A DNA stretch of 64,000 nucleotides from Candidatus Jettenia sp. (GTDB lineage: Bacteria > Planctomycetota > Brocadiia > Brocadiales > Brocadiaceae), in assembly GCA_021650895.1 (NCBI GenBank), contig CP091278.1, positions 3,563,659 through 3,627,658 of the forward strand. Direction: 5' to 3'. Shown one piece after another: positions 987 through 6,048 of this stretch. The first letter of the stretch is position 1. The number at the start of each line of letters is the position of its first letter. The notes below the pieces were generated by a model. That model did not search any database. It worked only from the letters and a program-made list of their open reading frames with translations, and was not told where the DNA came from. A program made the translations under genes and the position numbers.

Positions 987-2438
987 TTACTGTTCAAATA
1001 AGGCATTTACGAATGCGTCAGGATTAAATTTTTCTATATCATCCGCTTTTTCTCCCAATCCAATAAATTTTACGGGAATATTTATTTCATTACGCATGCC
1101 TAACACAACGCCACCCTTTGCAGTACCATCTATTTTAGCAAGAAATATTCCTGTAATATCAACAGCTTGTTTAAACATTTTTGCCTGGGAAATTGCATTT
1201 TGCCCTGTTGTAGCATCGAGTACCATTAACACCTCATGAGGCGCCCCGGGAGATCTTTTCGAAATAACTCGTTTTATTTTACTTAATTCATTCATAAGAT
1301 TCTCATGGGTATGAAGGCGTCCGGCAGTATCAACAATTAATATATCAATACCCCTTGAAATACTGGCTTCTAATGCATCATAAGTTACTGCTGCAGGGTC
1401 AGAACCGGTTTGATGTTTTACGATATCTGCTCCGATACGTTTACTCCAAATATCCAATTGATCTGCTGCTGCAGCCCTAAAAGTATCGCCTGCAGCGACC
1501 ATTACCCTTTTACCCTCTTTGATGAAAAGACTTGCAAGTTTTGCTATGGATGTAGTTTTTCCTACACCATTAACTCCCACTACCATAATGACGGTTGGGG
1601 GTGTAGGAGCATAATTGATATCGATTTGCCAGGACTGTAGATCTTCTTTTAATCTACTTTTTATGAAATCATGTATTTGTGTTGTTTCATTTATTGTTTT
1701 AGATTTCCATGCTTCATGTATTTCCTGCATGAGTCTTTGAACAGGTTTTACCCCTATATCTGCACCAATCAGGATATCTTCCAGTTCTTCAAGCACGGAT
1801 TCATCGATAGCTCTTCTAAAAGAAAAAACACCTTTTAATCGGGACCAGAAACGGTTCCGGGTTTTTTCTAATCCTTTTTTTAGCTTTTCAGATTTGATCC
1901 TTTCTTCTATAACCGCCGTTTCTTCCAGGGATGGAATGAGCGTTTCGATCTCCTCTTCCATAACAGCAGTTTCAGATGAAGCCAAAGCTTGTTTTTCAGC
2001 ATCATCTTCAGTTACAGCAGTCTCTGGCAGGACAGAAACCTGTTCTTCAGTTTCAATAACTGTCGTTTCTGTTGGAGTAGAAATGATTTCTTTAGTATCA
2101 ACTTCTATAACTGCTGTTTCTGATAGGGCTGATACGGGCCTTTTAATAGCATCTTGCGTATCAGTAGTATCGGGTGAAATAAGGGTTGATTCTTCGGTAT
2201 CAATTTCAATAATAGCAGTTTCTTCTTCAATAACAGAAACTTCGGGTTCGATGGGAACTAATCTTACAACATCATTTTCTATAATGACCGTTTTTCGAGG
2301 TTCTGCTGTGAAGTTTTTTAGTCGATACCAAAAGCTGGCTCGCTTTTTTTTCAACCCCTTTTTTACCTTTTGAGTCTCTATCATTTCTGTTTTATTGTCA
2401 ACCATGGCTTTTTTGCCTTTTTTTGAGGCCAGTCCCAT
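987..2438 (-). CDS. ftsY: Signal recognition particle receptor FtsY with long repetitive acidic N-terminus
   Basis: FtsY is the SRP receptor GTPase that docks ribosome-nascent chain complexes at the inner membrane. The C-terminal ~300 residues form the NG domain, with the P-loop GVNGVGKTTSIAKLA, the DTAGRLHTHENL motif and a KIDGTAKGG guanine-specificity region. Residues ~45-180 are an acidic low-complexity stretch built from about six degenerate copies of an ETAVIE unit. Two copies of a K-K-x-x-F-W-x-R-L-K type segment (KKRASFWYRLKNF and KTRNRFWSRLKGV) bracket it. At 483 residues it is long because of this region, which corresponds to the variable, acidic A domain of other FtsY proteins. It is followed by sdhB. 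The assignment of the NG domain is firm; the role of the repeats is unknown. Confidence 0.96.
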   Translation of the reverse strand: MGLASKKGKKAMVDNKTEMIETQKVKKGLKKKRASFWYRLKNFTAEPRKTVIIENDVVRLVPIEPEVSVIEEETAIIEIDTEESTLISPDTTDTQDAIKRPVSALSETAVIEVDTKEIISTPTETTVIETEEQVSVLPETAVTEDDAEKQALASSETAVMEEEIETLIPSLEETAVIEERIKSEKLKKGLEKTRNRFWSRLKGVFSFRRAIDESVLEELEDILIGADIGVKPVQRLMQEIHEAWKSKTINETTQIHDFIKSRLKEDLQSWQIDINYAPTPPTVIMVVGVNGVGKTTSIAKLASLFIKEGKRVMVAAGDTFRAAAADQLDIWSKRIGADIVKHQTGSDPAAVTYDALEASISRGIDILIVDTAGRLHTHENLMNELSKIKRVISKRSPGAPHEVLMVLDATTGQNAISQAKMFKQAVDITGIFLAKIDGTAKGGVVLGMRNEINIPVKFIGLGEKADDIEKFNPDAFVNALFEQ

Positions 2439-2569: not shown

Positions 2570-3853
2570 TCATTGAGAAGAGCATTTTTGTCTAAGCTTA
2601 TGAACAAACTCCTCTGGTACCGTAACTTTAGCAATGGGGGTGTCTATTTTTCTCTCTCCATGAAAATCAGAGCCACCGGTTACGGCCAAATCGTATTTTT
2701 CTGCTATCTTGAGATATTTCTTAATAGTTTGTGGGGAATGAGCTGGATAATATACTTCAATTCCTTGTAAACCGTCTTTTACCAAATCTTCAATAATGTG
2801 ATCTCTTTGGGTGAGTCCAGGATGGGCCAGAACTGATGCTCCATGAGCCTCTTTAATCAATTCAATAGCCTCTCGTGGCGTAAACGTTTTTTTAGGAACG
2901 TATGCAGGCCCATTATCTCCTATATATTTTAAAAATGCCTCTAAAATAGTGCTGCAATAACCATGTTTCCATATTACCTCTGCTACATGCATACGCCCTG
3001 GTGAGCCTTTTCCTGCTAAGGTAAGGATTTCCTCAGCATTAATGTCAACATTCAGGTTATGGAGTTTTTCAACCATAGTATAAATACGTTTTAACCTGTC
3101 TTCATGAGCTCGTTTTAACATCTTTTGCAGAGAAGTATTATGGATATCGATAAAATATCCAAGGATATGAACCTCTGAAGGACTGAGGTATGAAGAGAGT
3201 TCTATACCAGGAATAATATTCAGGTTTTTATTATCTCCGTAACGGAGCGCAATACCAACACCCTCAATAGTATCGTGATCCGTAATAGAAATAGTTGAAA
3301 CACCAGACCGAAGCGCCTCATCAACTACCTCTTCAGGTGTCATTGTACCATCGGAGTAATTTGTATGTATGTGTAAATCGGAATTTCCATAATTAACTTC
3401 TACTATATTCTGGAAAACAGGATCAGAAACGTTGTCTTTCAGCTCTCCGTTTCCGAATTGAGTGTAGATCTTATCTAAAATTCCATTTACAAAAGTTCCT
3501 GAATTTTTCGTGCTGAACTTTTTGGCAAGCTCAATGGCCTCATTAATTGAAACCTTTGGTGGAATATCGTCCCTGTACAAAAGTTCGTAGACTCCTAAGC
3601 GGAGAATATTTTTATCAATAATGGCCATGCGGTGTAATTCCCAATGTTCTGTAACACTGGATATCTTTTCATCTATTTCTTTGAGATGTGACCGGCAACC
3701 GTCAACAAGCAATATGGCAAACCTATATATGTCGGGCTTATCTGTATTTTTTTTACAGAAGGTATCGACCTCATCAAATATTCCATCACCGCGCAGGTCA
3801 AGTTGATAAAGAGCTTGAAGGGCAAGTTCACGAGCAATCGTTCTATTACGCAT
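2570..3853 (-). CDS. nusB: NusB transcription antitermination domain fused to a PHP phosphoesterase domain
   Basis: Residues ~1-135 match NusB: RTIARELALQALYQLD at the start, then the SINEAIELAKKFSTKNSGTFVNGILDKI signature (split here as SINEAIELAKKF and GTFVNGILDKI). NusB binds boxA RNA with NusE/S10 in rRNA antitermination. From residue ~158 a complete PHP domain follows, with DLHIHTNYSDGT, ITDHDTIEG, PGIELS, AHPG and GSDFHG, the metal-ligand pattern of the TrpH/YciV (RNase AM) phosphoesterases. The open reading frame is continuous with no stop between the parts. The ATG at 3853 is chosen because NusB proteins start at this point; an upstream in-frame TTG at 3880 adds nine atypical residues. 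ribH lies 113 nt upstream on the same strand, the common ribH-nusB pairing. Total length is about 427 residues against ~140 for a usual NusB. Confidence 0.9.
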   Translation of the reverse strand: MRNRTIARELALQALYQLDLRGDGIFDEVDTFCKKNTDKPDIYRFAILLVDGCRSHLKEIDEKISSVTEHWELHRMAIIDKNILRLGVYELLYRDDIPPKVSINEAIELAKKFSTKNSGTFVNGILDKIYTQFGNGELKDNVSDPVFQNIVEVNYGNSDLHIHTNYSDGTMTPEEVVDEALRSGVSTISITDHDTIEGVGIALRYGDNKNLNIIPGIELSSYLSPSEVHILGYFIDIHNTSLQKMLKRAHEDRLKRIYTMVEKLHNLNVDINAEEILTLAGKGSPGRMHVAEVIWKHGYCSTILEAFLKYIGDNGPAYVPKKTFTPREAIELIKEAHGASVLAHPGLTQRDHIIEDLVKDGLQGIEVYYPAHSPQTIKKYLKIAEKYDLAVTGGSDFHGERKIDTPIAKVTVPEEFVHKLRQKCSSQ

Positions 3854-3966: not shown

Positions 3967-4461
3967 TTAAACCTTTTTAGCTGATTTTGTACAGGATTGT
4001 ATTTGATCAAAAAGGTTTACCATTTCTATGGCTGATAAAGCAGCCTCTGCTCCTTTATTGCCAGTTTTTGCTCCAGCCCGGTCAATGGCTTGTTCCAAGG
4101 TCTCTGTTGTAATAACACCATAAATAGTTGGAATACCGGTAGACAAACCAACCTGTGCAATACCTTTAGCTGATTCGCTTGCAATATAATCAAAATGAGG
4201 TGTTTCGCCGCGGATAACAGCACCGAGGCAAATTACCGCATCATATTTTCCATTCTGTGCTACTTTAAGAGCGGCGCCTGGTATCTCATAAGAGCCAGGG
4301 ACCCAGAAAATATCAATATCCTCTTCTTTTACACCGTGCCTGATAAGTCCATCTAGTGCACCATCCAATAAACGCTTTGTTATAAAATTGTTAAATCGGC
4401 TAACAACAATTCCAAATTTCTTTCCTGTACCAATTAAATTTCCACAGAATTCAATACTCAT
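3967..4461 (-). CDS. ribH: 6,7-dimethyl-8-ribityllumazine synthase
   Basis: This is the penultimate step of riboflavin synthesis, condensing 5-amino-6-ribitylaminouracil with 3,4-dihydroxy-2-butanone 4-phosphate in the cytosol. Family motifs are clear: SRFN near the start, [21 protein letters not shown] with the catalytic histidine, [16 protein letters not shown] and GNKG. At 164 residues it has the usual length for the shell-forming enzyme. A GAGGGG stretch lies upstream of the ATG at 4461. It heads the minus-strand run ribH-nusB and faces tatC across about 240 nt. The riboflavin kinase gene ribF lies about 12 kb away rather than in a rib operon. Confidence 0.97.
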
Positions 4462-4702
4462 AAGTTTCAGAGAGTTCCCCTCATAGATAGTCAGGAAAAT
4501 AGATTGTTATATGCAAAATAGTAGCATATACCATGAAATCTTTCAAGGCTTTTCTCCTGAATTGTTTTCTTGTAATTTTAGAGGTATGTTTGTATGATAA
4601 ACTGCTTGTTTTTTGTTATGGTCTCAAAGGAAAAATAAATCATAAGGCGAGAAAGAGAAATTTTTATGTGTATTGATTTATTATAACTCACAGAGGTTTG
4701 AT

Positions 4703-5650
4703 GTGGAAAAGGTAATAAGAGAAGAAGAGATTGATGAAATTGAAAAAATAAGGATGACTTTAGGCGCACATCTTGAGGAGTTGCGACGCAGGGTGGTTTA
4801 TTCCATTATCGCCATTGTTCTTTGCTTTGTATTCTGTTGGTTTTTTAAAGTGCAGATTTTGGATATAGCCAAAAAGCCCCATAGGTTTGCTATGGGAAAG
4901 GCAGGCCTTTCATCTGAGTTACAGGTGCTCAGCTATCAGGAGGGTTTTTATGCCTACATGAAATTGTGTTTTATAACATCGGTTTTTATCGCCTATCCGT
5001 TTGTCATCTACCAGATATGGCAATTTGTAAGGGCGGGGCTTTATAAAAAAGAGAAAAAATATATACTCCTCTTCCTTCCTATTTCATACCTTGCATTCGT
5101 GGTAGGAGGAATTTTTGGATATTTTTTACTTATACCCTTTGGTCTGCAATTTTTAATCGGTATTCTTGGTCCGGGAATACAACCAATTATTACCATGCAG
5201 CAGTATGTTTCATTTGTGTTCATGCTGACTGTGGCATTGGGATTAGTATTTCAATTGCCTCTCGTTATGCTGCTCCTGTCGAAGATTGGAATTGTTAGCC
5301 CTGACAAATTTATTGCATGGAGAAAGTATGCCATCTTAGTAATATTCATTATTGCTGCTATAGTTACTCCACCCGACCCTTTTACACAGACCATGACTGC
5401 AGTTCCTATGATCATTCTCTACGAACTAGGAATCCTTATCGCAAGACCTACAAAAAGAGGATTTATTCTCTTGGGTACCGCTATTGGTTGTGGAGCTATT
5501 GCTGTAGTTGGGGTATATTTTTATTTACCCATAAGGGTGGAGAGATTAATGTGTCGAATCCGTATGGGGATATTCAGATTTTATATCCGGGCGATAGAGA
5601 GTGGAAGAAGGTATCAGGCCATATGTCCTTTCAGAAAGGTGTTACCCTGA
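4703..5650 (+). CDS. tatC: Sec-independent (Tat) protein translocase subunit TatC
   Basis: TatC is the polytopic inner-membrane receptor for twin-arginine signal peptides. The N-terminal MTLGAHLEELRRRV motif and six membrane segments match the family, including the YPFVIYQIWQFVRAGLY, FQLPLVMLLL and ITPPDP-like (VTPPDP) regions. Start choice: a GTG at 4703 follows CAGAGG with a 6-nt spacer; an upstream TTG at 4673 and an ATG at 4754 are alternatives. After the usual sixth segment there is an extra hydrophobic stretch (GTAIGCGAIAVVGVYF) and then ~40 basic residues that look out of frame. The reading frame one base over instead gives a sensible periplasmic FecR-type domain (see the next entry). 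The 3' part of this frame may therefore be an artefact or a shadow of a frameshift. Confidence 0.93.
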   Translation: MEKVIREEEIDEIEKIRMTLGAHLEELRRRVVYSIIAIVLCFVFCWFFKVQILDIAKKPHRFAMGKAGLSSELQVLSYQEGFYAYMKLCFITSVFIAYPFVIYQIWQFVRAGLYKKEKKYILLFLPISYLAFVVGGIFGYFLLIPFGLQFLIGILGPGIQPIITMQQYVSFVFMLTVALGLVFQLPLVMLLLSKIGIVSPDKFIAWRKYAILVIFIIAAIVTPPDPFTQTMTAVPMIILYELGILIARPTKRGFILLGTAIGCGAIAVVGVYFYLPIRVERLMCRIRMGIFRFYIRAIESGRRYQAICPFRKVLP

Positions 5651-6048
5651 AAACTGGCAAGGGAGGGAGAACCATCTTATCTACAAAAAGGGGGGTAAAT
5701 GTAGGGATGGACACAAATACTGAAGCGCATTTTTTTGATCCCTGGAAGATGCAACTAAAAACCGGTCAAATCCTCATTTCGATGAAGGGATCAGAAATAC
5801 CCTTAGAAGTTGATACCCCGAATGGGCGGATACGAATGAATAAAGGTACTTTAAATATCCAGGCGAAGGATATTGTTACTATTGTGACAGCCGTAAATGG
5901 CGAGGCTACCCTATTGATAGAAGGGGAAGAGAAAAAATTATTGGAAGGACGCCAGCATAAGATGTCTATCGGCGGCGAACCTGTGGATATTGGGGCTATT
6001 ATCAATTGGTCAGAGGGTATAGTAACGAAATCTGATGAGCAAAAGTGA
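5551..6048 (+). CDS. FecR-type domain protein overlapping the tatC 3' end
   Basis: About 165 residues of beta-rich sequence resemble a FecR/LptA-like periplasmic domain (GVTLKTGKGGRTILST, PLEVDTPNGRIRMNKG, TAVNGEATLLIEGEEKKL). If expressed alone, a GTG at 5551 preceded by GGTGGAG (5537-5543) is the best start, but the product would lack a signal peptide, odd for this fold. The same frame reads back into the extra hydrophobic segment of tatC. Adding one base in the T run at 5518-5522 would join TatC, its seventh membrane helix and this domain into one protein whose tail would be periplasmic. It is followed after 139 nt by the STAS-HATPase gene. Function is unknown; domain recognition is moderate. 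Confidence 0.65.
   Translation: MSNPYGDIQILYPGDREWKKVSGHMSFQKGVTLKTGKGGRTILSTKRGVNVGMDTNTEAHFFDPWKMQLKTGQILISMKGSEIPLEVDTPNGRIRMNKGTLNIQAKDIVTIVTAVNGEATLLIEGEEKKLLEGRQHKMSIGGEPVDIGAIINWSEGIVTKSDEQK

Follow-up and report, generated by a model that had tools for sequence, protein, structure and literature searches.

A NusB domain fused to an RNase AM-type PHP domain in Candidatus Jettenia and its planctomycete class, with a possible link between antitermination and pre-rRNA 5'-end processing

The window analysed here is the whole stretch of 64,000 nucleotides taken from contig CP091278.1 (positions 3,563,659 to 3,627,658) of a Candidatus Jettenia sp. genome. The genome is complete, a single contig of 3.82 Mb, and the nearest named relative is the anammox planctomycete Candidatus Jettenia ecosi (98% identical). 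On the minus strand of the window, a frame of 427 codons runs from an ATG at 3853 to a stop at 2570 (2570..3853) with no internal stop and no frameshift. The 427-residue product joins a NusB domain (residues 1–133; 3455..3853, minus strand) to an RNase AM-type PHP domain with its insertion subdomain (residues 157–427; 2573..3385, minus strand) through a disordered, non-conserved linker (residues 134–156; 3386..3454, minus strand). The single intact frame proposed in an earlier sequence-only reading of this DNA is thus borne out, with both Pfam domains above their cut-offs. The gene lies between ribH, encoding lumazine synthase (3967..4461, minus strand; upstream), and ftsY (987..2438, minus strand; downstream), all on the same strand; ribH is also found ahead of nusB in relatives and Omnitrophota, and ftsY follows php across the class. 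AlphaFold2 models the protein as two confident domains (mean pLDDT 91) whose mutual orientation is not fixed (pTM 0.64).

The N-terminal domain is a full NusB, the rRNA and lambda antitermination factor. PF01029 matches residues 6–130 (E = 1.4e-36; 126 bits against a cut-off of 23), and the NCBIfam nusB profile TIGR01951 scores 141 bits against a cut-off of 88. The block modelled over residues 1–133 is helical from residue 3 to residue 133, with pLDDT mostly 83–96, and is matched by Foldseek to 1tzt, 3r2c (NusB/NusE/boxA) and 3d3c. The NusB core residues are conserved in an alignment of the fused proteins, and a search of the genome found NusB in single copy only, as the fusion itself. As in many bacteria the gene sits beside ribH, and boxA-like sites are present in the rRNA operons. 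On the basis of a function established for the NusB family, this domain should join S10 on the boxA of nascent pre-rRNA. Where it departs from a plain NusB of ~140 residues is in the C-terminal enzyme of ~270 residues that the fusion adds. NCBIfam rsmB profiles also match this part of the protein. RsmB-type proteins, in which a NusB-like domain is joined to an rRNA methyltransferase, provide a functional precedent for linking a NusB-type RNA-binding domain to an enzyme acting on rRNA, although the enzyme there is a different one and the NusB-like domain is diverged, whereas the domain described here is of the antitermination type.

The C-terminal part was assigned to the PHP superfamily by PF02811 (residues 159–280; E = 1.5e-11; 45 bits against a cut-off of 26) and carries the motifs picked out in the earlier reading, ITDHDT and GSDFHG among them; its identification of both domain types agrees with the Pfam and NCBIfam profiles. 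Two NCBIfam equivalog profiles match the PHP part almost equally (both ~1e-48) and both fall below their cut-offs, namely RNase RNM at 164.8 bits against 375 and 3',5'-nucleoside bisphosphate phosphatase at 167.7 bits against 400. Foldseek likewise returns 3e0f, Vibrio cholerae RNase AM (9etk) and Chromobacterium violaceum CV1693 (2yb1). This is the only RNase AM-type PHP domain found in the genome, where the other PHP proteins are one of 1159 residues and one of 580 residues, judged by length to be probably DnaE and PolX, and one of the histidinol-phosphatase type.

Metal ligands and residues of the 5'-phosphate pocket have been assigned in the structure of E. coli RNase AM (PMC9410882). All eight ligands of its three-metal site (H13, D20, H45, E72, H83, H198, D255 and H257) are present, as H161, D168, H193, E218, H229, H344, D396 and H398, and so are the pocket arginines R107, R110 and R141 and the stacking F161, as R253, R256, R287 and F307. 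These residues are invariant among the fused and adjacent homologues, save for the first two ligands in two sequences of family f5, which lack the first motif because the mechanically called frame begins too late. The exception is Arg201, which in RNase AM forms a salt bridge to the active-site sulfate at the phosphate position; here it is L347, and the position is variable in the homologues. Because the ligands and pocket are all invariant, the PHP domain is expected to work as a hydrolase with recognition of a 5'-phosphorylated nucleotide; as far as the sequence goes, its natural substrate may be RNA or pAp. Residues and fold together make it most likely a three-metal hydrolase of the RNase AM/nucleoside bisphosphatase group with 5'-3' exoribonuclease activity. 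With RNase AM/RNM (E. coli YciV, V. cholerae 9etk) it shares the PHP fold with insertion subdomain, the eight ligands, the pocket and the stacking phenylalanine, but it scores below the equivalog cut-off, lacks Arg201 and sits behind NusB, whereas E. coli rnm is a stand-alone gene beside yciO. With CV1693 it shares the active-site architecture, the fold and an equal profile score, again below cut-off; that enzyme is known as a stand-alone protein with no link to NusB.

The two domains are separated by a stretch modelled with pLDDT below 50 (residues 136–150). Between its flanking motifs the linker ranges from 16 to 74 residues in fused relatives and has no common motif. Identity to other Brocadiaceae outside the genus is 77–89% for NusB and 69–80% for PHP but 22–57% for the linker, and dN/dS is ~0.05–0.08 in both domains (0.13 in the comparison with Ca. 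Jettenia ecosi, a very near relative), with higher values for the linker where these could be computed. Both domains are under strong purifying selection, while the linker varies freely.

The same domain pair was sought in related genomes, with a sample of the frames inspected. In the planctomycete class of the host, which includes the anammox bacteria, 63 of 75 genomes carry the orthologous fusion, 5 are unfused, and in 7 the gene is absent or truncated where a contig ends. The fusion occurs in families f1 (31/33), f2 (8/9), f3 (1/1), f4 (14/17), f8 (8/9) and f9 (1/1), and several of the fused genomes are closed, single-contig assemblies; the unfused genomes belong to f5 (two), f6 (two) and f7 (one). 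The remaining genomes sampled from the phylum showed no fusion. Long frames precede NusB at two loci (L118 and L120), and no further Pfam domain was found in them.

Gene order is ribH, nusB-php, ftsY in the fused genomes. Relatives with two separate genes, which the sequence-only reading had held would speak against a genuine fusion, do exist, but they are mainly more distant lineages in which the pair is kept in an overlapping state; this looks like a forerunner of the fusion and gives no hint of an artefact. In f6, f7 and Omnitrophota, nusB and php are separate, in the order ribH-nusB-php with or without ftsY next, and either overlap by 4 bases (ATGA or GTGA type) or have little or no gap between them, and the overlap in f7 is 37 bases. 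Of 117 Omnitrophota genomes, at least 47 have nusB directly before php on one strand, in no case fused. Since these groups keep the genes separate but overlapping or nearly abutting, the fusion probably arose from a translationally coupled gene pair. An overlapping nusB-php followed by ftsY is also carried by a 4.8-kb contig assigned to Limisphaerales (Verrucomicrobiota) in binning (L055, 2549–4802); in the NusB and PHP trees alike this contig clusters with one from Omnitrophota (L057), and it is either mis-binned or a case of gene transfer. Separately, a locus of the archaeon Candidatus Hadarchaeum (L060, 4995–7496) has three PHP genes of the RNase AM-like type in tandem.

In quick trees f9 falls outside the order for both NusB and PHP, and f8 does so for PHP, and yet a constraint holding all fused rows together was not rejected (AU p 0.50 for NusB and 0.75 for PHP), so that the number of fusion events is not fixed by the trees. 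The unfused f5 sits within fused groups in the NusB tree, whereas the PHP tree makes it the sister of the fused Brocadiales; it may be a secondary split or may never have been fused. In one f5 genome ~200 bases separate nusB from php; in the other, ribH-nusB is on one contig and php-ftsY on another. Such a separation onto two contigs is found in G039, of the same order, and in G084, outside the class (L107, L108, L112 and L113), and indicates that the nusB/php junction can be the very point at which the operon breaks. In the unfused f5 php genes at L102 (near 4620) and L108 (near 4000–4080), no ATG, GTG or TTG lies ahead of the essential DLHIH motif, and where the start is expected each gene reads ATT, preceded in L102 by AAGGAAGG. 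Judged from these letters, AUU is a possible rare start codon of f5 php, and infC is a precedent for such a start.

Both rRNA operons of the genome have the order 16S-tRNA-tRNA-23S-5S and share one sequence over the 117 bases that precede 16S. In both operons a boxA-like AGTTCTTTG begins 116 nt before 16S, and a boxA-like TGTTCTTTG lies 69 nt before 23S. Leader and trailer are predicted to pair with -58 kcal/mol around 16S and -51 kcal/mol around 23S, below all 300 of 300 shuffles, and each boxA-like site stands at the 5' edge of the main predicted processing stem. A spacer boxA was present in almost all relatives examined and a strict leader boxA in about half; the leader scan used a permissive pattern and a simple mononucleotide shuffle (9% per leader expected by chance), so single leader matches are weak and the spacer sites are the better evidence. 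RNase E/G is encoded in the genome, and an NrnA-like DHH protein is encoded elsewhere in it. RNase J was found neither in the genome nor in any of 98 genomes of the phylum sample, which rendered a test for anticorrelation between RNase J and the fusion uninformative (0/98).

These features would suit a bifunctional rRNA biogenesis factor. The NusB domain would be an arm that binds RNA and the transcription complex, together with S10 on boxA, and the disordered, variable linker would loosely tether the PHP enzyme to the transcription/processing complex. Once RNase III or RNase E/G had opened the leader-trailer helices of 16S and 23S, the tethered enzyme would be well placed to shorten the resulting 5'-monophosphate ends until the mature 5' ends are reached, or to remove the excised leader. 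As boxA lies upstream of the presumed cut, NusB would remain on the excised side; any trimming of the mature side would have to happen in trans or ahead of release, or else the enzyme could clear the leader and free NusB. We consider the chances about even that NusB on boxA, by way of the flexible tether, holds a 5'-3' exonuclease at nascent pre-rRNA and so couples antitermination to 5'-end maturation, a proposal in which the exonuclease activity, the rRNA substrate and the gain from tethering are all inferred. A coupling of rRNA antitermination to RNA processing had been suggested in the earlier reading. It draws indirect support from the canonical and sole NusB, the intact catalytic and 5'-phosphate residues, the boxA-like sites beside both stems, the lack of RNase J and the linkage or fusion of nusB and php in two phyla. 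Counted against it are the PHP scores, equal for RNM and the bisphosphatase and far below both cut-offs, the replacement of Arg201 by L347, the strict leader boxA in only about half of the relatives, the position of boxA on the excised side, the relative domain orientation left open by the model (pTM 0.64) and the fact that operon adjacency alone can yield a fusion.

The same equality of NCBIfam scores, together with the presence in CV1693 of the whole active site and the same mechanism, is what would be expected of a housekeeping hydrolase for pAp and 5'-phosphorylated short RNA that became joined to NusB only through the proximity of ribH, nusB, php and ftsY, with no benefit specific to rRNA. 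The overlapping two-gene state that probably preceded the fusion and the unconserved linker fit this as well. However, the NrnA-like DHH protein could cover the pAp work, a cytosolic clean-up enzyme alone would hardly account for the linkage of php to nusB in two phyla, and the fusion has been retained in six family-level groups; we regard a purely housekeeping role as possible but doubtful.

The position of boxA on the 5' side of both predicted stems, in the fragment that is cut away, would also accommodate NusB-directed decay, in which the tethered exonuclease destroys the boxA-bearing excised leader or spacer, or rRNA from failed antitermination complexes, while other enzymes make the mature 5' ends. 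NusB would then be recycled and defective rRNA removed, and the catalytic residues argue for this as they do for coupled maturation. Yet no RNase J-type 5'-3' exonuclease was found that could make the mature ends, although the RNase E/G present could cut directly, and such a decay role appears improbable. That assembly or annotation falsely joined two genes, conceivable as relatives have nusB and php as neighbours, can be dismissed with near certainty because the same in-frame fusion recurs in 63 genomes of independent assembly, closed ones included, which excludes both chance and an assembly join, and because dN/dS is well below 1 in both domains.

Returning to coupled maturation, its broadest form would be an rRNA maturation module kept as one chain across the class, with NusB docked on boxA bringing a 5'-3' exonuclease to nascent pre-rRNA and so linking antitermination physically to 5'-end processing, and with the Omnitrophota nusB-php pair as a two-gene version; this we put forward tentatively, at somewhat short of even odds. 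Both domains are members of known families. A literature search covering few subscription papers turned up no account of their combination, of its retention throughout the class or of the linked two-gene form of the other phylum, and an earlier description is possible; to that extent the view that this is not a standard fusion holds. In E. coli, antitermination (NusB/boxA) and rRNA 5' trimming (RNase AM) are done by unlinked proteins, the latter being credited with maturing rRNA 5' ends in passages of PMC9848016 and PMC10250234 that cite Jain 2020; a passage of PMC10250234 also describes the effect of the antitermination complex on ribosome quality as unclear. A NusB fused class-wide to a probable RNA 5'-end trimmer suggests that the making and trimming of rRNA are physically coupled in these bacteria, and the single chain in one lineage and the overlapping genes in relatives point to a direct functional link. 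The fusion also suggests a substrate that can be tested for RNase AM-like PHP proteins outside Proteobacteria, and is a candidate for the missing 5' exonuclease of bacteria that lack RNase J, the anammox bacteria included.

In the same part of the window, the neighbouring tatC (4673–6048, plus strand) is split into a 325-residue frame (4673–5650) and an overlapping frame (5317–6048). In relatives tatC is a single frame of ~446–450 residues that matches the first window frame only to about residue 286, which places a frameshift, either real or a sequencing error, near 5530–5545.
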